A DNA stretch of 43,266 nucleotides, from IMG/VR virus record IMGVR_UViG_3300020129_000122, positions 1 through 43,266 of that record; one strand, given 5' to 3'. The translations under genes were made by a program, and so were the position numbers. A model generated the notes under the pieces. That model ran no database searches. It had not been told where the DNA came from and saw only the letters and a program-made list of their open reading frames with translations. Each line of letters opens with the position of its first letter. The stretch's first letter is position 1. Source of the stretch: a virus. This document shows, in pieces, positions 9,867 through 39,876 of the stretch.

Positions 9867-10204
9867 TGAACCTCGCGGGGGGCGTCAAGGGTCTACTGCC
9901 CGGGGAGCCATTCTCCGTGCGGATGACCTACGACGGCCTCCGCGACATGGTTCAGGAGCAAAAGACGCTCGGCAGGGTCCCCAAGATCCTGCTGGTGTCC
10001 GAATACGACCGGAACGAGATCACGCAGGAGCTTCAGGCGCATTCACTCACGCCGGTGGCCAAGTCCGACGAAGACAAATTCAACCAGACGCTGGGCTTCA
10101 TGGAAGGCTGCATGGTCCTCGCGCATCGCGACGTGCCCAGGGGCCGCATCCGCGTGATCTGCGAGAAGCCGAACGCCGACGCTCAGCGGGTGATCAGTGC
10201 CTAA
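9866..10204 (+). CDS. Hypothetical protein upstream of portal (112 aa)
   Basis: ATG 9866 overlaps the previous stop. The protein has an alternating alpha/beta composition: VRMTYDGLRDMVQEQKTL, then a strand KILLVSEYDRNEI and a C-terminal strand RIRVICEKP. No family is recognised. The 3' end overlaps the portal start (GTG 10197) by 8 bp, so translation of the two is probably coupled. Confidence 0.65.
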   Translation: MNLAGGVKGLLPGEPFSVRMTYDGLRDMVQEQKTLGRVPKILLVSEYDRNEITQELQAHSLTPVAKSDEDKFNQTLGFMEGCMVLAHRDVPRGRIRVICEKPNADAQRVISA

Positions 10205-12497
10205 GAAGGCGATCAAGTCGGAAGACTCCGACAAATCCACGCTTCCCAGGGATGACAAGGACTTTGAGCCATCCCAGGACGAAAAGACAGCCGTAAAACA
10301 CTGGCTCGACCGCGTCCGGCGGGCCGAGGAAGAGCCGCGGCGCAAGGAGTGGTTCGAGCTCCTAGAAAAGCTCCGCGGCTACGTCTACGGGACCGAGCAC
10401 AAGGACCCGAGCGGCAACAAGCTCACGCGCACGAACCTGACCTTCGCGACCATCGCGACCCTGGTCCCCCGGATCTACGCGAAGAACCCCGACATCGCCG
10501 TCGCTCCGACCGCCGCGGTGGGCAAGGACATGCTGGCGATGGTGAAGAAGTTCGCCGCCACGTGCGAATCGCTCCTCTCGCAGATGCTCGTGAAGGAGGC
10601 CAAGCTCAAGAAGCGCATGAAGTCGAACGTGCGCTCGGCCATGACGACCTCCTACGGCGTGGTGAAGATGCTCTTTCAGAAGTCGCTCTCGGGCGACCCG
10701 CTGGTGATCCGCCGCATCCAGGACACGCAGGAGAACATCGCCAAGATCGAGGCGCTCGCCGCCGACATGAAGGAAGGCGACGACGTCCAGAAGCTCGCGA
10801 TCCAGCGGGACGAACTGCGCGGGCAGCTTGAGGGCCTCCGGTCCGGGAACGAGGTCAAGATCTTCAAAGGCTTCGTGGTCGATCGCATGCGCTCCGAGGA
10901 CTTTCTCATCCTCGACGATTCCATCGCCGAGTTCGACGAGTATGTCGACGCCGCCGCGCTCGGGCATGTGGTGTGGATGACGGTCGACGACTACAAGGCG
11001 AAGTTCAAGCACGAGCCGAAGGCCGCGACCAAGTACAACACCCCGTTCGCCAAGGCGGAGGGGCAGGAGAAGGACGGCCAGGGCCTCGGCGACATGTTCG
11101 TCTGCGTGATCGAGATCTGGGACAAGTCCGCCGGCGTGATCAGGACCGTGGCCAAGGGCTCGAATCGCTGGTGCCGCGAGCCGTACGCGCCTAAGAACAC
11201 GCCGCAGCGCTGGTACCCGTTCTACGTGCTGGGCTTCAACCTGGTCGAGGGACGCTGGCGGCCCAATTCGGACGTCGAGCTCCTGATGAACCTGCAGGAC
11301 GAGTACAACACGACGCGCACGAACTTCGCCGACGCGAGGAAGGACTCGGTCCCGATCAGGGTGTTCCGCAAAGGCGGGAGCTTGACGGAGGAGGACATCA
11401 AGGCCCTGTCGGTTGCCCGCCGGAATCGCGACTGGATCGGGGTCGAAGGCAATCCCTCTGTCAAGATCAATGACGACATCATGCAGCTCGATGGCCCGAA
11501 GATCGATCCGCAGGCCTATGACGTCACCCTGATCCGGAACGACATGGACATGATGGCCGGGCTGTCGGACGCCTCCCGCGCCAATCTGATCCAAGCGAAG
11601 ACCGCGACCGAGGCCGAGATTATGCGGGACTCGCTGGGCCTGCGCGTGGACGAGCGCCGGGACACGAACGAGGACCTGATGAGCGAGATGGCCGAGGCCG
11701 CGCTCGAGATCGCCCTCCGCGACATGTCGAAGGAAGAGGTCAAGCAACTGGCTGGCGAGGATGCCGAGTGGCCCTCCGACCTGTCGGTCGACCAGATCTT
11801 CGCCATGGTGAACGTATCGGTCCGGGCCGGATCCTCGGGCAAGCCGAACGCGGACAAGGACCGGGAGCAGTGGACGAAGCTGCTGCCCGAAATCAAGGGC
11901 TCCATGGAGACCGTCAGCAAGCTCCGGGAGACTGGGCACTTCGACATGGCCGACGCGATGATCGAACTCTTGCGCGAGACCCTGCGCCGGTTCCAGGAGA
12001 AGCTCGACGTCGACTCGCTGATCCCGCCCATCGAGAAGGATGCGGAAGGCAAGCCCGTGGCGCAGGCCCAGGCGATGCAGCAGGCGGCGCAGCTCAAGCA
12101 GGAAGTCGCCGAGCTCACCGAGCAGCTGCAGGGCTGCCAGCAGGAACTCCAGAAGGCGCAGGCGGGCGAGCAGTCCAAGGTCGCCCAGATCAACGCCGAC
12201 AAGGAACTGGCAGCGACCAAGGCGACGGCCGAAGGGCAAGCGCGCGCGGCAGAAGCCAACGCCCGGGCCGAAACGGAGAAGCACCTTGTACTCGTGAAGG
12301 CCGCGGTCGAGCTGCTCGGCAAGACGATGGACAACGCCAAGCAGCTCGAGCAGGACGGCGCCGGCGACGAGGCGGGCACGAAAGCAACGCTCCAGATGAA
12401 CGAGGTCCTCGCGAACCTGGGCGAAACGATGAACGGACTGCGGACCACGATGGAGAAGATCGCGGCCGGAACCGCGCCTGCGGGGGCGCAACAATGA
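10197..12497 (+). CDS. Portal protein
   Basis: At 766 aa this is in the size range of P22-like portals. The N-terminal third contains a charged helix and an AKNPDIAVAP segment. The middle has features shared by this portal group: RWYPFYVLGFNLVEGRWRPNSDVELLMNLQDEYN and a helix with MAGLSDASRANL. From about residue 620 the tail is Gln/Ala/Glu-rich and coiled-coil (LKQEVAELTEQLQ), matching a barrel-type extension. The dodecameric portal forms the packaging channel and nucleates procapsid assembly. GTG 10197 has only a weak ribosome site, consistent with coupling to the overlapped upstream gene. Confidence 0.88.
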   Translation: MPKKAIKSEDSDKSTLPRDDKDFEPSQDEKTAVKHWLDRVRRAEEEPRRKEWFELLEKLRGYVYGTEHKDPSGNKLTRTNLTFATIATLVPRIYAKNPDIAVAPTAAVGKDMLAMVKKFAATCESLLSQMLVKEAKLKKRMKSNVRSAMTTSYGVVKMLFQKSLSGDPLVIRRIQDTQENIAKIEALAADMKEGDDVQKLAIQRDELRGQLEGLRSGNEVKIFKGFVVDRMRSEDFLILDDSIAEFDEYVDAAALGHVVWMTVDDYKAKFKHEPKAATKYNTPFAKAEGQEKDGQGLGDMFVCVIEIWDKSAGVIRTVAKGSNRWCREPYAPKNTPQRWYPFYVLGFNLVEGRWRPNSDVELLMNLQDEYNTTRTNFADARKDSVPIRVFRKGGSLTEEDIKALSVARRNRDWIGVEGNPSVKINDDIMQLDGPKIDPQAYDVTLIRNDMDMMAGLSDASRANLIQAKTATEAEIMRDSLGLRVDERRDTNEDLMSEMAEAALEIALRDMSKEEVKQLAGEDAEWPSDLSVDQIFAMVNVSVRAGSSGKPNADKDREQWTKLLPEIKGSMETVSKLRETGHFDMADAMIELLRETLRRFQEKLDVDSLIPPIEKDAEGKPVAQAQAMQQAAQLKQEVAELTEQLQGCQQELQKAQAGEQSKVAQINADKELAATKATAEGQARAAEANARAETEKHLVLVKAAVELLGKTMDNAKQLEQDGAGDEAGTKATLQMNEVLANLGETMNGLRTTMEKIAAGTAPAGAQQ

Positions 12498-12507
12498 GGA
12501 GCTGGCA

Positions 12508-13716
12508 ATGAAACTGCGCTATTGGGTCTATCGGGACGAAACGGGCGACACTGGGGACACTGGCGGAGGCGGCGGCACGAGCGGCGCGCCGGCGGCCGGG
12601 GAGGGCACGCAGGGCACTGACGCCGGCGGGGAAGGTGCCACGAGTGCTACAGCGCCCAAGAGCATGCTCGAGGCTCTCGACGCTGGGCTCGGCTACAAGA
12701 CCGGCGAGGATGGCGGCGGGACCGGAGCTGCGAAGCCCCAGCAGTCCGCCGAAGAGAAAGCCGCAGCCGACGACAAGGCCGCCGAAGAAGCGGCGATCAA
12801 GGAGCGCGACGAGAAAGCCGCGAAAGGAGACCCCGGTGCGATCAAAGCCAAGCAGGACGCTGAAGCCGCGGCGAAAGCCGAGGCCGCCAAGCCCAAGGAC
12901 CTGAAGGCCCTCGAGCTCTCGGAGGCCGACAAGAAGGTGATGAAGGGCAAGACCGCCGAGCGCTACAACGAGGTGCTCGGGATCGCGAAGGCCGAGCGCA
13001 CGCGGGCCGAGACCGCGGAGGGACAGGTCAAGGCCTTGGCCGTGTCCCGGGACGCGATCCTCGGCGTGCTGAAGGAAACGAACACGACGCAGGAGGACCT
13101 CGGCAACCTCCTCGAATTCAACCGGCTCATCAAGAGCGGCCAGCCGGCGGACATGGAGACCGCGCTCAAGATCGTCACGAACCAGCGCCTGGCGCTCCTG
13201 AAGGCGCTCGGCAGGGAAGGGGACGGACACGACCCACTCACCGAGTTTCCGGATCTCGCGCAGGAGGTCGAGGACCAGAAGATCACGCGAGAGCGGGCGC
13301 TGGAGCTCGCGGCCGTGCGCAAGCGCGATGCGATCACCAAGGCCAATGCCGAAGCCCAACAGCGTGGCAAGCAAAGCGCGCAGCAAAAGCACGATGCCGA
13401 GGTCAAAGCCCAGCAGGATGGCCTCGCGTCCATCGAGTCCTGGAGCGCCCAGGTCGCCAAGACGGATATTGACTTCAAGGCGAAAGAGGCTATTTTGCTC
13501 CCCAAGATTACGGAGATCGTGAAGAACAACCCTCCGGACTCGTGGCTCAAAACGATCAAGCTCGCGTACAGCATGATCGTGGTGCAGAAGGCCAGCTCAG
13601 CCCTCCCGAAGACCGGCGACCAGCCGCTCCGGGCGAGCGGGGCGAAAGCAGGGAACGCAGCCCCGACATCGATGCAGGAAGCGATCGATCAGGGGCTGGG
13701 GTACGCGAAGGGCTGA
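12508..13716 (+). CDS. Scaffolding protein
   Basis: The protein lies between portal and coat, is acidic, Ala/Lys/Glu-rich and largely helical. An N-terminal Gly/Thr-rich disordered part (residues 10-50) precedes long charged helices, and the C-terminal end is basic, the coat-binding side in scaffolds of this type. It carries two copies of one peptide, SMLEALDAGLGY at residues 52-63 and SMQEAIDQGLGY at 388-399, the second at its extreme C-terminus. The same peptide ends the protein at 26201-26560. Scaffold directs coat assembly and leaves the procapsid. The ribosome site is GAGGAGC before ATG 12508. Confidence 0.8.
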   Translation: MKLRYWVYRDETGDTGDTGGGGGTSGAPAAGEGTQGTDAGGEGATSATAPKSMLEALDAGLGYKTGEDGGGTGAAKPQQSAEEKAAADDKAAEEAAIKERDEKAAKGDPGAIKAKQDAEAAAKAEAAKPKDLKALELSEADKKVMKGKTAERYNEVLGIAKAERTRAETAEGQVKALAVSRDAILGVLKETNTTQEDLGNLLEFNRLIKSGQPADMETALKIVTNQRLALLKALGREGDGHDPLTEFPDLAQEVEDQKITRERALELAAVRKRDAITKANAEAQQRGKQSAQQKHDAEVKAQQDGLASIESWSAQVAKTDIDFKAKEAILLPKITEIVKNNPPDSWLKTIKLAYSMIVVQKASSALPKTGDQPLRASGAKAGNAAPTSMQEAIDQGLGYAKG

Positions 13717-13721
13717 GCACC

Positions 13722-13801
13722 GCCGGGTCGCCTCCGGCAAGACGGCAGCAGGCCGGTTCGTCACCGGCACGTAAGGGGCTGAAAACGGGATCGCCCTCCG
13801 T
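13722..13801 (+). other. Three similar hairpins between the scaffold gene and the first HNH gene
   Basis: The 145-bp gap 13717-13861 holds GCCGG-(7)-CCGGC at 13722-13738, GCCGGT-TCGTC-ACCGGC at 13752-13768, and a weaker ACGG-(9)-CCGT at 13785-13801. All three have TCG in the loop and are spaced about 31-33 bp apart. No T-run follows, so they are not standard terminators. They may slow ribosomes or protect RNA ends between scaffold and coat, or be relics of the insertion. The rest of the gap holds the HNH ribosome site. Confidence 0.5.
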
Positions 13802-13861
13802 GACTGAGAAATGCGCTTCGTCAGCGTGAAAAAACCAATCTCAATCACACGGAGAAGAACT

Positions 13862-14365
13862 TTGCCCCGCAAGCTCCAACCAGTCCGGTCCTGCACCCGC
13901 TGCGGCTCCTCCACCAACGAGTTCTACAAGTGCTCGAAGGTATCGGATGGGCTGTCGTCATGGTGTAAGCCGTGTTTCCGCTCGTATCGAGAGGCCGACT
14001 ATGTCGTGCATCCCGAGAGGAAACAGCGCCGCAATGAAGTCAGCGCGAACTGGCAAAAGGCCAACCCAGAAAAGACCGTAGAGAAGTCGCGCCGGTATCA
14101 ACTGACGCATCCCGAGCGGTGTGAGCGTGTGCGCTCTCGTCGTCACCTGACAGCAAGGCGACCGGCGTGGGCAAACCCGTTCTTCATTTCGGAAATCTAC
14201 GATCTGGCTCGTCGACGCACAAAGCTCCTCGGAGAAAAGTACGTTGTCGACCACGTGATCCCGCTGAAGCATCCGCTCGTTTGCGGGCTTCACGTCGAGA
14301 CGAATCTGCGCGTTGTGCCCCAGCGAGTGAACGCGGTGAAGGGCAACTCATTCGAAATTATCTAG
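13862..14365 (+). CDS. HNH homing endonuclease upstream of the capsid gene
   Basis: The product (167 aa) begins with a zinc-ribbon-like part (CTRCGSS about residues 11-17, CKPCFR about 36-41), then a basic helical linker with repeated PEK/PER turns, and ends with a DHVIPLKHPLVCGLHVETNLRVVPQRVNAVKG segment, the H-N-H nuclease core. TTG 13862 is chosen because GGAGAAG (13851-13857) sits at the right distance; ATG 13811 is in frame but has no site. Codon use is AT-richer than the flanking genes. It is probably a free-standing homing endonuclease inserted next to the coat gene; its stop is 10 bp before the coat start. Confidence 0.85.
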   Translation: MPRKLQPVRSCTRCGSSTNEFYKCSKVSDGLSSWCKPCFRSYREADYVVHPERKQRRNEVSANWQKANPEKTVEKSRRYQLTHPERCERVRSRRHLTARRPAWANPFFISEIYDLARRRTKLLGEKYVVDHVIPLKHPLVCGLHVETNLRVVPQRVNAVKGNSFEII

Positions 14366-14375
14366 GAGAGCGAAA

Positions 14376-15431
14376 ATTCCTTTCACCTCGCAGGAAATAA
14401 CCGACGCAGGGAAAATCGGTCTTGATTTTTACCTGAAAAACGATCCAATCGACCAGATCGCGGTCGAGCGCCCGCTCTACAAGTTCCTGAACGGCCGCAA
14501 AACCTCAGCCCCCGGCGCCAAGCAGTACATCGTCGAGCAGCTGCGCATCAAGTACCAGTCGAACTTCCAGTGGTTCAACGGCTCGCAGGTCGTGACGTAC
14601 AACAAGCGTCAGACCATCGAGCAGGCGAACTACGCATGGCGCGCGGCGCATGACGGCTTCGCCCTCGACGAAGATCGCCTGATCCAGAACGGCATCTCGG
14701 TCGACGACAACGGGCCCGGCGGCAACGCAACCGGTGCCGAGCGGCTGCAGCTCACCAACCTGCTGAAGGAGCAGTCCGAAGTCCTCAAGCTCGGCTTCCA
14801 GGAGAAGTTCTCCCAAGCCCAGCACCTGGACGGCACGCAGTCCTCGGACGCCATCACGGGCGTGGACGCGCTGGTCTCGCTGACCCCGACCACGGGGACG
14901 GTGGGCGGCATCGACCGCGCGGGCGCGACGAACGTCTACTGGCGCAACTACGCCCAGACCGGCCTCACGTCGACGACGACCACGGGGAACATCCTCGACT
15001 ACATGGAGATCGCCTGGCGCGCCTGCGTCCGCAACGGCGGCAAGCCGGACTTCATCGAGGTGGGGTCGACCTTCCTCGACGGCTTCCGGAACTTCATGTT
15101 CAAGAGCTTCGGGCGCATCGACTACGAAGGCGTGAGCGAGCGGACCATCGAAGGCGGCACGAAGATGTGCACCTTCCACGGGGTCGACATGGTCTGGAAC
15201 CCGGAATTCTCGGATCTGGACGCGCTCTATGCGCCCTCGACGCTCTGGGAGAAGCGCTGCTACTTCATCAACGGGCGCCACCTCAAGCTCCGGCCCATCG
15301 AGGGGCAGGACATGATCACCAGGAAGCCCCCGCGCGCGTACGACAAGTACGAATATTATTGGGGATTGACTTGGCGTGGTGCTGTCACCATGAACAGGTC
15401 GAACGCGCACGCGGTCCTCGCGGTCTCCTGA
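14376..15431 (+). CDS. Major capsid protein, apparently starting at ATT
   Basis: The frame codes for the coat of P22/N4/Bcep22-type relatives: PFTSQEITDAGKIGLDFYLK near the start, then DQIAVERPLYKFL, QYIVEQLR, FQWFNGSQVV, TYNKRQTIEQANY and a conserved HDGF. The open frame begins after TGA 14337 and has no ATG, GTG or TTG before GTG 14592, which would remove about 72 conserved residues. AGGAGAG at 14364-14370 sits 5 bases before ATT 14376, giving a 351-aa protein of expected length. ATT initiation (as in infC) or an assembly error are the options. Composition is AT-richer at both ends, next to the two HNH genes. Confidence 0.85.
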   Translation: MPFTSQEITDAGKIGLDFYLKNDPIDQIAVERPLYKFLNGRKTSAPGAKQYIVEQLRIKYQSNFQWFNGSQVVTYNKRQTIEQANYAWRAAHDGFALDEDRLIQNGISVDDNGPGGNATGAERLQLTNLLKEQSEVLKLGFQEKFSQAQHLDGTQSSDAITGVDALVSLTPTTGTVGGIDRAGATNVYWRNYAQTGLTSTTTTGNILDYMEIAWRACVRNGGKPDFIEVGSTFLDGFRNFMFKSFGRIDYEGVSERTIEGGTKMCTFHGVDMVWNPEFSDLDALYAPSTLWEKRCYFINGRHLKLRPIEGQDMITRKPPRAYDKYEYYWGLTWRGAVTMNRSNAHAVLAVS

Positions 15432-15452
15432 CGTTGTAAAAGTACCGTTTCC

Positions 15453-15481
15453 GTGCGAGAGTGCGAAGGCACTTTCGACAC
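15453..15481 (+). other. Stem-loop between the capsid gene and the second HNH gene
   Basis: GTGCGAGAGTGC (15453-15464) pairs with GCACTTTCGACAC (15469-15481) around a GAAG loop, with one bulge and one wobble or mismatch. No U-run follows, and the stem ends 1-2 bases before the HNH ribosome site (GGAGG, 15483-15487). It may stabilise the coat mRNA 3' end or hold down HNH translation in the abundant late transcript, as reported for some T4-type homing endonuclease genes. Confidence 0.5.
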
Positions 15482-15490
15482 GGAGGCGGT

Positions 15491-16099
15491 ATGCAACAGG
15501 ACGAAATTAAAGCGGCGTTTTCGCGGCTCAAGAAGCGAATCTCGAAGCGCGGCGAGTGCTGGATCTGGCAGGGGGCAATCGACACGAATGGTTATGGGTG
15601 CATCAGGGTCGGCGACAAGGTCATCTCGACGCACAGGCTCGCGTACCTCGCGGTCCATGGGCCGATCCCGCGCGGAAAGGTGGTTAGGCATAGCTGCGAT
15701 GTCACTGATTGCTGCTGTCCCAAGCACGTTCTCTGCGGAGACCACGAAGACAACGTCCAAGACCAGCGCGACCGCAACCGATTCAAGCCTCGCCGTGTCC
15801 TCACTGACGCGGAGCGCGCAACTGTCGCCGAGATGCGCCACGCGGGCTCTACCAAGCGACAGATCGCGGAGGCGCTGCACATCAACTGGAACGCGGTCTC
15901 CCGGGCTCTCGACGATCTTGGGATCGGACGCGGAAAGGGTGGCAGGCCGAAGGGCTCTCGCAATGCGCGGCAGCGGTTTTCGGAGGATCAGAAGCGACGG
16001 ATCGCCGAGGAGTACGCGGCCGGGGGAATCACGCAAAAGGCTCTTGCTGAAAAGCATGGCTGCGACCAGACGTACATCAGCATTCTCGTAAGGCGTTAG
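15491..16099 (+). CDS. HNH endonuclease (HNH_3 type) with C-terminal HTH motifs
   Basis: After a short helix the protein has the HNH_3 core: CWIWQGAIDTNGYG, then STHRLAYLAVHGPI, VVRHSCDVTDCCCPKHVLCG and DNVQD, with the catalytic His in VRHSC. Two helix-turn-helix repeats follow: TKRQIAEALHINWNAVSRAL near residues 120-140 and TQKALAEKHGCDQTYIS near the end, which would set site specificity. Start ATG 15491 has GGAGG 3-4 bases upstream. It is of a different family from the HNH protein on the other side of the coat gene, so the two insertions are independent. Confidence 0.88.
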   Translation: MQQDEIKAAFSRLKKRISKRGECWIWQGAIDTNGYGCIRVGDKVISTHRLAYLAVHGPIPRGKVVRHSCDVTDCCCPKHVLCGDHEDNVQDQRDRNRFKPRRVLTDAERATVAEMRHAGSTKRQIAEALHINWNAVSRALDDLGIGRGKGGRPKGSRNARQRFSEDQKRRIAEEYAAGGITQKALAEKHGCDQTYISILVRR

Positions 16100-16148
16100 C
16101 TGGCGACTCGTGGGCATCGTGCCTCCGGGTCATTGAACGGAGGAAGTG

Positions 16149-16391
16149 ATGAAATCCACGAAAGCAGCGAAGAAGGCTAAGGCGAAAGCCCCGGCCAAGA
16201 AGGTGGCAGCGCCGCGTGCGCGTGCGCCGAAAGCAGCCCCGGCCCAGCCTGCGGCGAAATCGGTCGAGTTCCCGGTCCTCGCGCACGTCGGCAAGTCGGG
16301 CGACAAGATCCCAGTCCAAGTGACGGACCAGGCTCATCTCGACCGGCTGATCGGCGAGCACGGGGCTGGCGGTGTCGAGGTGCAATCTTGA
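16149..16391 (+). CDS. Lys/Ala-rich small virion-region protein (80 aa)
   Basis: ATG 16149 follows GGAGGAAG (16139-16146). GTG 16146 is in frame but too close to that site. The first ~38 residues are Lys/Ala/Pro-rich, like histone H1 tails (KAAKKAKAKAPAKKVAAPRAR). The rest is a small folded part with strands FPVLAHVG and KIPVQVTD. It may bind packaged DNA or a head surface. No family is recognised. Confidence 0.7.
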   Translation: MKSTKAAKKAKAKAPAKKVAAPRARAPKAAPAQPAAKSVEFPVLAHVGKSGDKIPVQVTDQAHLDRLIGEHGAGGVEVQS

Positions 16392-16936
16392 CCCGGCGCA
16401 TTTTCGTCAACGTCTCGCGGGGAATGACCGACAAGACGGCGGTCTGCGTCTTCCCGTGGGAGAAGGCGATCCTCGAGCAGATCCACGGCGGAGAGGTGGA
16501 GGAGGTCTCCATCGACGAGATGTGCGCGCTGAAGGGCGCCATCAAGGTCGAGAAGACCAAGTTCAAGCGCGAGCTGCCGGACGGCGCGGAGCGGGACAAG
16601 GCCCCCGACCTGCGCGCCCAGTTCGAGGCGATGGTGGTGGTCCCCGAGGACGAGGACCCGAGCGCCGATCCGGACGCCGAGTATGGACGGCTGGTCGACA
16701 AGTACGGCATGGACAAGGACATCAACATGCCGGTGGTGACGGTCGTCTACGGCCGCGTCGAGTCGGGCGGGTTCGCGGCAGCCATCAAGGCCGCGGCGAA
16801 GTCTTCCGGCGAGAAGGCGGTCGAGGACATGTCGATCAACGAGCTGCGCACGAAGCTCCGGGCAGAGGGCATCGACTTCGCACCGACCGCGAAGAAGGCG
16901 GAACTCGCGGATCTCCTGGCCACGGCGACCGCGTAA
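16388..16936 (+). CDS. Hypothetical head-region protein with C-terminal SAP/HeH-like motif (182 aa)
   Basis: TTG 16388 overlaps the preceding stop by four bases (TTGA) and has GAGG about 8 bases upstream. The N-terminal half is beta-rich (RRIFVNVSRGMTDKTAVCVFPWE). A middle acidic segment (VVPEDEDPSADPDAEYG) follows. The last ~35 residues, MSINELRTKLRAEGIDFAPTAKKAELADLL, match the two-helix SAP/HeH motif common in small phage head proteins placed after the coat. It is probably a structural or DNA-binding accessory protein. Confidence 0.75.
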   Translation: MTRRIFVNVSRGMTDKTAVCVFPWEKAILEQIHGGEVEEVSIDEMCALKGAIKVEKTKFKRELPDGAERDKAPDLRAQFEAMVVVPEDEDPSADPDAEYGRLVDKYGMDKDINMPVVTVVYGRVESGGFAAAIKAAAKSSGEKAVEDMSINELRTKLRAEGIDFAPTAKKAELADLLATATA

Positions 16937-37773: not shown

Positions 37774-38585
37774 GCCTTGGCCTTCTTCGACAGGGCGGCT
37801 TTGCGGGCATCCTTCGCGCGCGTGAAGATCCCCATCGCTTCCTTGTCGCTGAGCGCCTGGGCAGCTTTGTAGGCCTTGGAGAACGAGGCCTGCAGGGTCG
37901 CGAGGTCGGAGGCTTCGTCGAACGTCGCGATGAAGTCGGAGATTTGCGCCTCGGAGAGCAGGTCTTCCTTCCCCTCGGAGCCGCGGCCGTCGTCGTCCTG
38001 GCCCTTGACGGCCATGCCGGTGGCGGCGAGCAGCGTGTACCGCTGGAGGTAGGTCACCGTCGAGCCGACCGACTGGATGTTGTTCTTCTTGCCGGTCTCA
38101 TCACGCCCGGCCTGCATCGGCACCTTTATCGCGTGGCCCGCAGAGTGCGCGAGGACGCAGGTCACGCGGATCATGCCGCCGTCGAGCTGCTCGACGTCCC
38201 AGCGGTGTGACAGGCCATGCGGCGCGAGAGCCTTCCCGATCTTGACCGAGACCTCGTCGAGCGTGGCGTGGTAGTAGTCGGTCTTGCCGCCGCCGTTCTG
38301 GTGTTCGAAGGAAACGTGCTTGTTCTTGACCAGCTCGGGCGGGTCCTTCTTGAACGCGGCGAGTGCGGAGTCGAAGGCCTTCTTCGCCTCGGCCGCTTCC
38401 CACCGGTCCCGCAGGTCCATCAGCTTGGCGATGGTTTCGGGCGCCATGCCCTTCTGCACGGCCAGGGCGAGCATGGATGCGGGCGATTCGGAACCGGGCT
38501 GAGCCACCGGCAGCGCGCGGTCCTCGACTCGCGTGAATTGCGGCGCCGGGGACTGAATGACGCTCGCTTCGACGACTTGGTTCAT
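37770..38585 (-). CDS. erf: ERF-family single-strand annealing protein
   Basis: The 271-aa protein has an N-terminal disordered part, then the ERF core: FDSALAAFKKDPPELVKNKHV, then YYHATLDEVSVKIGKALAPHGL and the hallmark GSTVTYLQRYTLLAATG (174-190). The tail is helical, Lys/Ala-rich and may contact nuclease or SSB. ERF proteins anneal complementary single strands (P22 Erf). It partners the YqaJ nuclease downstream and NinB in the right operon. Confidence 0.92.
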   Translation of the reverse strand: MNQVVEASVIQSPAPQFTRVEDRALPVAQPGSESPASMLALAVQKGMAPETIAKLMDLRDRWEAAEAKKAFDSALAAFKKDPPELVKNKHVSFEHQNGGGKTDYYHATLDEVSVKIGKALAPHGLSHRWDVEQLDGGMIRVTCVLAHSAGHAIKVPMQAGRDETGKKNNIQSVGSTVTYLQRYTLLAATGMAVKGQDDDGRGSEGKEDLLSEAQISDFIATFDEASDLATLQASFSKAYKAAQALSDKEAMGIFTRAKDARKAALSKKAKA

Positions 38586-39700
38586 GCGGCCACCTTTTGC
38601 TGTTTGTTGGCGAAGTAGGTATCGATGGCCTTCACGACACCTGCGAATTCCCGGCGCTTGCCGAAGCGATCCTTGAAGACCGTCAGGAGCGTCTGGCCGT
38701 CCATGAGTTCGGTTTCGAGGCGGCGGGTTTCGCGCTCGGCGTCTTCCTTCGCCTTGCGATCCGCAGCGGCCTGGGCCTCCAGTTCCTCCCGTTTCTTCCG
38801 GGCCTCGTCGTCGGCCTTGCGCTGCGCGGCTTCGATTTCCTCGCGCTGCTTGCGCAGGCGCGCTTCCTCGGCGTCCCGGACGGCCTTGGCTTCAGCGTCA
38901 GCCTTGTCGCGGGCTTCCTTCGCTGCGCGGTCCTCGGCTTCCCGGCGTTCGCGGGCGGCGCGTTCTTCGGCTTCCAGCTTTGCCCGCGCCTCGGCCTGCA
39001 GCTTGGCTTCGTTGTCAGCGCGTTCCTTCGCTTCGGCGCGCAACCGGGCCAGTTCTTCCTGCTCGGCCTTGAGCTTCGCCGCGGCTTCGGCTGCAGCCTG
39101 CTCCGTGGCCAGCGCGCCGGCGTGGAGCTGCTCGAGCGCGGTCAGCGTCGAGGCCTTGATCGATTCGGCTTTGCCTACGAACTCCATCGCCCAGGCGTCG
39201 AGCTTGTTCGCCTTCAGCCCTTCGATGGCGTTGGCGATCTCGGCCGCAGTCTTGCCCGCCATGCGCAAGGGCGTCTGCTCGATGGCCGCGATGCTGAGTT
39301 CGATGCGCTCAACCCGCGCGCGCTCGGCCTGAATCTTCTCCTCGCGCTTCGTGTCCTCGGCGTTCTGCAACCGCTGGAGGCGCTTTTCCTCCTCCTCGAT
39401 GATCCCGATCAACCGGCGTTCCTCGGCGATCACGGCCTTCGAAAAGGCAGTCGCGTCCTCGCGCACCAGCTTGCCGCGACGCTCGGTACTGGTCCGGGCC
39501 TTGACCAACCGCATGCGCGCCGCATGGCACTCGGCATACCCGGCCTCGTTGGTGATCGCCACGATGCTCTTGGACTGCTCGGCCAGGGCCTTGAACTCGG
39601 CCTCGACCTGCGGGACGCTGAGCGCGGTGCGAACACGCTCGACGACCGTCAACTGCTGCGCTTCTTCCATTCCGGTGCTCCTTTCGGGGGTGGTGTTCAT
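38582..39700 (-). CDS. Long coiled-coil protein of the recombination module (372 aa)
   Basis: The N-terminal ~110 residues are helical (FKALAEQSKSIVAITNEAGYAECHAARMRLVKARTS), loosely like DUF1351-type phage proteins. A long Ala/Glu/Lys/Arg single helix or coiled coil follows (about 215-330, repeated EAEERA and RREAEDRAAKE), then a small C-terminal domain (MDGQTLLTVFKDRFGKRREFAGV). Start ATG 39700 is chosen for the ATGA overlap. ATG 39670, with AAAGGAG upstream, is a strong alternative. It may scaffold the nuclease/annealase pair or block a host nuclease. Confidence 0.75.
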   Translation of the reverse strand: MNTTPERSTGMEEAQQLTVVERVRTALSVPQVEAEFKALAEQSKSIVAITNEAGYAECHAARMRLVKARTSTERRGKLVREDATAFSKAVIAEERRLIGIIEEEEKRLQRLQNAEDTKREEKIQAERARVERIELSIAAIEQTPLRMAGKTAAEIANAIEGLKANKLDAWAMEFVGKAESIKASTLTALEQLHAGALATEQAAAEAAAKLKAEQEELARLRAEAKERADNEAKLQAEARAKLEAEERAARERREAEDRAAKEARDKADAEAKAVRDAEEARLRKQREEIEAAQRKADDEARKKREELEAQAAADRKAKEDAERETRRLETELMDGQTLLTVFKDRFGKRREFAGVVKAIDTYFANKQQKVAA

Positions 39701-39876
39701 GCCAGCCGCGCGTACTGCAGCTGGCGAATCTCGGCGCGACGCAAGCGGGCCTCGGACTCGGCAATCTCTTTGACGAGCCATGCCTTTTGGTTTTCGAGGT
39801 CGGCCTTGTGCTGCTTGAGGTACTCGACCTCGTTCTCCCAGAAGGCGAGGAGGAGGCGTTCGAGGAGGGCCTTCAT
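39697..39876 (-). CDS. Small coiled-coil protein (59 aa)
   Basis: This short frame fills the space between two larger genes and has 4-bp overlaps at both ends (39873-39876 and 39697-39700). The product is a single amphipathic helix (KALLERLLLAFWENEVEYLKQ then KAWLVKEIAESEARLRRAE). It is likely real because the operon would otherwise have a gap with no coding. It may pair with the long coiled-coil protein coded next. Confidence 0.7.
   Translation of the reverse strand: MKALLERLLLAFWENEVEYLKQHKADLENQKAWLVKEIAESEARLRRAEIRQLQYARLA

Follow-up and report, generated by a model that had tools for sequence, protein, structure and literature searches.

Two unrelated HNH endonuclease genes border a viral major capsid gene that appears to start at AUU

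The DNA analysed here (the window) is a stretch of 43,266 bases from the record of a bacterial virus and contains a single copy of the major capsid gene, with a different HNH endonuclease gene at each edge. The arrangement is probably explained by two unrelated free-standing HNH homing-endonuclease genes that colonised the two edges of the capsid gene independently. The upstream gene, HNH1, would have inserted at the capsid start codon, so that the leader and ribosome-binding site of the capsid now serve HNH1, while a Shine-Dalgarno sequence within the HNH1 tail would direct re-initiation of the capsid at AUU. The downstream gene, HNH2, would have inserted just past the capsid stop, where a hairpin over the HNH2 ribosome-binding site would have taken the place of a terminator. 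The altered ends of the capsid gene would be donor sequence co-inherited in homing, target sites changed so that the carrier stays uncut, or both. The argument is comparative, draws on metagenomic sequences and is built on gene positions, presence or absence, discordant relationships, start codons, altered segments and a predicted hairpin.

The capsid gene (14376-15431, + strand, 351 codons) encodes a protein that matches the PHROG major head protein (3.9e-41). A portal gene (10197-12497) and a scaffold-like gene (12508-13716) precede this locus. HNH1 (13862-14365, + strand, 167 aa) lies upstream of the capsid gene and HNH2 (15491-16099, + strand, 202 aa) downstream; a small gene then starts at 16146, followed by a HeH/LEM protein gene (g16388, 16388-16936). 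Elsewhere in the window, a gene on the - strand (38582-39781) matches PHROG 21091, of unknown function (9e-20), and a strong PHROG match is absent for most other large open reading frames scanned.

HNH1 combines a zinc ribbon (CxxC..CxxC) with a helical middle part and an HNH core at the C-terminus (D-H...N...N), and residues D130, H131, N148 and N157 are invariant across 34 homologues. The protein matches PHROG endonuclease VII (3e-13) and families of unknown function. Structure prediction from only four sequences was poor, and an AlphaFold model from the 34-sequence alignment had a pLDDT of 88. The top fold matches of this model are HNH nucleases, none of them individually significant by E-value. 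A PDB sequence search returned chance-level ATRX matches only, and a search for HNH1 relatives in bacterial genomes returned just two partial matches (31-35%). HNH2 matches Pfam HNH_3 (1.5e-9) and, twice, HTH_23. The PHROG, Pfam and fold matches bear out the preliminary description, which had placed the capsid gene between a zinc-ribbon HNH gene and an HNH_3 gene with two HTH motifs; the two proteins belong to unrelated families.

Relatives that lack an HNH gene have a conserved leader and a CGGAGG-type Shine-Dalgarno directly before the capsid ATGCC. The same native leader and Shine-Dalgarno precede the HNH gene in 6 of 6 loci with an upstream HNH gene (the window, L002, L048, L054, L005 and L015), and the TTG or GTG of that gene occupies the former position of the capsid ATG in all six. 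The native leader in the window (13717-13861, + strand) aligns with the leaders that HNH-free relatives have directly before the capsid ATG. CGGAGA (13850-13855), the original Shine-Dalgarno of this leader, is now 5' of HNH1, whose TTG start occupies the native position of the capsid ATG and which ends with TAG at 14365. By this alignment, HNH1 is placed exactly at the capsid start codon and thereby separates the leader from its gene. In the upstream carriers, the capsid gene is preceded by another Shine-Dalgarno, which lies within the HNH tail or immediately 3' of it. The window copy, AGGAG (14364-14368, + strand), comes from the HNH1 tail and lies 7 nt 5' of ATT, with the same tail in L048, and only 10 nt separate the HNH1 stop from the capsid start. 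The leader at 13717-13861 and those of L001, L003, L020 and L054 contain repeated GGTTCGYC hairpins with some compensatory changes, and this capsid leader is possibly a regulatory RNA.

Distant HNH1 relatives in the phages renfri, RF1 and FritzHoffmann also lie directly before conserved genes and overlap them, and those genes start with ATG or TTG at the overlap. Distant HNH1 relatives in cultured phages (L223, L224 and L225) overlap the starts of helicase, DNA polymerase I and DpdA genes by 8-14 nt. An HNH1-like gene that is 39% identical (L057:2983-3740, on the same contig as L233) is immediately followed by a different small gene, whose TTG start comes after GGAGAAGGCTC; a close HNH-free relative for comparison with this L057 locus was not found. 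Frames 3' of other HNH1-like proteins in L073 and L081 were considered as start-less genes and rejected as antisense or unrelated frames.

The capsid gene appears to start at the rare codon AUU at position 14376. The sequence there reads ATT CCT TTC ACC (IPFT) where relatives have MPFT, and residues 1-351 align with relatives that have M at residue 1. There is no in-frame ATG, GTG, TTG or CTG upstream of 14376 before a stop. Open reading frame finders begin the capsid at GTG 14592, the first canonical start, which is 72 codons late. Sequencing error as the source of ATT was rejected; ATT is present in four separate contigs. ATG is the start codon at most capsid loci in the comparison, and five loci use GTG. 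The HNH1 carriers have ATT (the window, L002 and L048) or TTG (L054). An ATG or GTG capsid start is lacking in 4 of 4 HNH1 carriers versus 1 of 89 other loci (Fisher p = 1.7e-6, with L031 and L034 omitted for unclear starts), and this test includes only four carriers whose mutual independence is incomplete. Degenerate capsid-start pattern scans of all IMG/VR contigs found no further ATT or TTG starts of this form. The apparent AUU start and the replacement of the capsid start codon by HNH1 were both overlooked in the preliminary description.

The sole non-canonical start among the 89 other loci is L133 (660-760), which has an ATT capsid start and an HNH1-tail-like Shine-Dalgarno and no HNH1 gene. 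Its leader ends GGAAGGAGGAACCCAAAATTCC, matching the L002 HNH1 tail AAGGAAGGAACCCAAAATTCC, and its predicted Shine-Dalgarno is about the strongest of the set. L133 also has an in-frame ATG 27 nt upstream of ATT. The locus looks like an excision scar, in which recombination of one Shine-Dalgarno copy with the other may have removed HNH1 and left ATT behind; alternatively, a resistant allele may have been acquired. Two other loci differ at the capsid start. In L002 (2066-2200), a tandem duplication of 65 bp shifts the ATT out of the capsid frame and supplies a new in-frame ATG (MSRSTSQEITDAG...); the duplication is either an assembly error or a genuine replacement of, or escape from, the ATT start. 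L034 (position 5001) has ACG at the usual capsid ATG position, an ATG 8 codons upstream and an HNH2-type gene downstream.

Loss of the capsid ATG may be a form of self-protection: the conserved start of the capsid gene (ATGCCNTTYAC...) would be the recognition site of HNH1, and a change to ATT or TTG would give immunity. This possibility is somewhat less likely than not. Both start copies are non-ATG in all four HNH1 carriers (TTG or GTG for HNH1, ATT or TTG for the capsid), and ATT is retained in carriers with HNH1 proteins just 72-74% identical to that of the window. L133, with ATT and no HNH1, is as expected of a resistant empty allele, and the capsid ATG is kept in L005 and L015, where the HNH genes at this upstream site belong to another clade. 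However, the site may already be lost through the insertion as such, the alteration reaches codon 24, and ATT could be merely the fixed edge of the insert. The fuller reading is that a homing endonuclease targets the translation start of the capsid gene, replaces the start codon, takes the ribosome-binding site and obliges the capsid to start at an AUU that also renders the allele uncuttable. This reading is tentative and, as a whole, rather unlikely; if it is true, AUU scars such as L133 would remain after the element is lost.

The preliminary description had noted AT-richer capsid ends. GC at third codon positions (GC3) is 0.48 in the first 25 codons of the window capsid, ~0.95 in the interior and 0.68 in the last 26. 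The 5' altered segment covers codons 1-24 (14376-14447, + strand) and is AT-shifted and synonymously divergent. Synonymous identity of the first or last 25 codons was compared with the gene middle for each capsid, and the p-values are one-sided, with no correction for kinship (phylogeny) or for the choice of codon window. In the six capsid genes that have an HNH gene upstream, the N-end synonymous deficit is -0.146 versus -0.057 (p = 0.009, one-sided, kinship ignored) and the N-end GC3 shift is -0.29 versus -0.11 (p = 1.3e-4, likewise). With a downstream HNH gene (n = 8), the C-end synonymous deficit is -0.223 versus -0.136 (p = 5e-4, one-sided, kinship ignored) and the C-end GC3 shift is -0.19 versus 0.00 (p = 2.4e-5, likewise). 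The end opposite the HNH gene, which served as a negative control, shows no effect. Amino-acid identity at the altered ends is not lowered, and most of the changes are therefore silent. One HNH1 carrier, L054, does not show a marked synonymous deficit at its N-end. The preliminary description had asked whether divergence peaks at the flanks; it peaks at the HNH-proximal end only, with the far end flat; uniform divergence along the gene was not found.

Ordinary codon bias for open mRNA structure near the start and stop, unlinked to HNH genes, would also make the capsid ends AT-rich, and some 5' enrichment is indeed usual: the HNH-free L006, L007 and L157 are likewise AT-rich at the 5' end, and HNH-free genes lose on average 0.19 GC3 in codons 1-12. 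Codon bias is nevertheless an improbable account of the excess, which is specific to the HNH-side end. Codons 13-24 and 325-336 shift only with a same-side HNH gene, the opposite-end controls are flat, and the capsid genes of L027 and L028 differ abruptly in their last ~48 nt after a long identical stretch. L027 (no HNH gene) and L028 (HNH2-type gene) are near-isogenic, with capsid genes essentially identical from about codon 161. About nine differences fall in the last ~48 nt of the capsid before the insertion, and the next gene is identical again. As aligned, this pair is a direct picture of a tract that would travel with an HNH2-type gene.

The window has a different pattern at its 3' end. 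The altered patch (YEYYWGLTWRGA, 15348-15383, + strand) covers the conserved motif YEYYWGLTWRG at codons 325-336 and is offset from HNH2, and the 15 capsid codons that adjoin HNH2 look native. GAA TAT TAT TGG at codons 326-329 is common only to the window and L187, the two loci with window-type HNH2, in a comparison picked after data inspection. Because native codons separate the patch from HNH2, a plain conversion tract would explain it no better than a variant target site that stays with its endonuclease. For the capsid 5' end, a recent donor tract common to the carriers was rejected; HNH1 carriers have no common 5' variants, and two HNH-carrying loci resemble each other there no more than a carrier resembles a non-carrier. 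The proposal that the altered ends are co-conversion tracts would thus apply to short ends only (~25 codons at each end, ~48 nt in L027/L028). For HNH2-type genes, the L027/L028 pair and the C-end statistics bear it out, with the patch of the window itself offset; for HNH1, N-end divergence is raised and the carriers have no tract in common.

The region between the capsid stop and the HNH2 start contains a predicted RNA hairpin (15433-15497, + strand) with a 51-nt main stem (15442-15492) and outer pairs (-44.4 kcal/mol, z -8.3). The hairpin encloses the GGAGG and AUG of HNH2, which starts with ATG at 15491 and ends with TAG at 16099. Hairpins are likewise predicted at the starts of HNH2-type genes in L187, L174, L217, L028 and L034. 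In most HNH-free relatives examined, this position is taken by a terminator-like hairpin with a T-run.

Among ~95 related capsid loci, an upstream HNH gene is present in 6 and a downstream one in 8, one of them a remnant (L030:6072-6280, an HNH2-type fragment 3' of the capsid gene with 67 aa of the C-terminal HTH part only). HNH1 itself is found in 4 capsid loci, window-type HNH2 in two (the window and L187), and HNH genes on both sides of the capsid in the window alone. HNH genes are scattered across the capsid tree (FastTree). The window and L187 capsids lie in different clades, and their HNH2 proteins are 54.5% identical. The window and L048 are 71% identical in HNH1, 66% in the capsid, 38% in the portal, 33% in the scaffold and 27% in g16388. 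This presence/absence polymorphism means that the HNH genes are not fixed in the family, and the sporadic occurrence of unrelated families on the two sides agrees with the earlier suggestion of two independent invasions. These comparisons support HNH1 and HNH2 as independent, apparently mobile genes.

The preliminary description also suggested that the capsid allele could spread as a unit, and a HEG-island, in which the flanking HNH genes move from phage to phage with the entire capsid gene, is a related alternative. Such islands with capsid genes have been described (PMC10448857), and the window has an essential gene bracketed by HEGs. This alternative is nonetheless quite improbable here. 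The bracketed arrangement occurs in the window only, and a cargo block conserved between dissimilar phages was not found. The marks are limited to the capsid ends, and the interior is closest to capsids without HNH genes (87% identity to L001). L187 and L048, whose HNH genes are nearest to those of the window, have capsids only ~65% identical to the window capsid.

Models in which HNH1 is spliced out as an intron or intein, bypassed by the ribosome or fused by frameshifting, with the capsid read from the HNH1 TTG, gain from the native Shine-Dalgarno at the HNH1 start and the likeness of its TTGCC to the capsid ATGCC, but they are very improbable and were rejected: HNH1 is free-standing with no Rfam intron match, the distance between the HNH1 stop and the capsid start varies among carriers without keeping the frame (13, 25, 13 and 14 nt), and a Shine-Dalgarno lies just before ATT or TTG in every carrier and before ATT in the HNH-free L133. 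A group I or II intron or IStron was also rejected, with no intron RNA core and 10 nt between the HNH1 stop and the capsid start.

Independent colonisation of both edges, as preferred here, would be a concrete natural example, seen in several loci, of homing genes that leave their mark on the ends of an essential gene. Empty and occupied alleles are available in a near-isogenic background, and the altered segments point to testable target sites. From these patterns we infer cleavage activity, homing, AUU initiation and immunity. The L133 ATT allele without HNH1 would make homing-gene gain, immunity and loss directly testable. If AUU truly initiates the major capsid protein, the view that AUU is confined to a few weakly expressed, regulated bacterial genes would be challenged, and gene finders will misplace such starts. 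Searches of the open-access literature found no report of an AUU-started capsid gene or of start-codon replacement by a homing gene. The rare bacterial AUU start is known from infC, which is autoregulated. The window gene has the same apparent start, and unlike infC it encodes a major capsid protein and needs high expression.

Intronless homing with co-conversion is established (PMC2988022). The T4 seg and mob endonucleases are, like HNH1 and HNH2, free-standing and located beside essential genes, and co-conversion is expected of them. Sequestration of the ribosome-binding site by a hairpin is known for T4 segB, Aeh1 mobE and I-Tev genes and resembles that predicted for HNH2 (PMC2988022). That review puts cleavage sites at hundreds or thousands of bp from the endonuclease gene, whereas the altered segments in the window are within ~150 bp, and unlike the T4 genes HNH1 replaces the start codon of its host gene. 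For Skunavirus HNH endonucleases, the recipient is assumed to be resistant once the donor variant replaces the cleavage sequence; that system concerns other phages, and the portion of the account considered here does not report insertion at a start codon (PMC12724721). In ShiLan, an HNH gene lies out-of-frame in a phage methylase coding unit without an intron or intein (PMC11855218); it is located inside the reading frame, whereas HNH1 is at the start codon and splits the leader from the gene. HEG-islands share with the window the bracketing of an essential gene, including capsid genes, by HEGs of different classes and the instability of HEG content between relatives, and differ in that the window marks only short capsid ends, with no near-identical mobile block found (PMC10448857). 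Bracketing of a capsid gene by HNH genes is therefore known, and replacement of its start codon by an HNH gene, together with an AUU capsid start, appears to be new.
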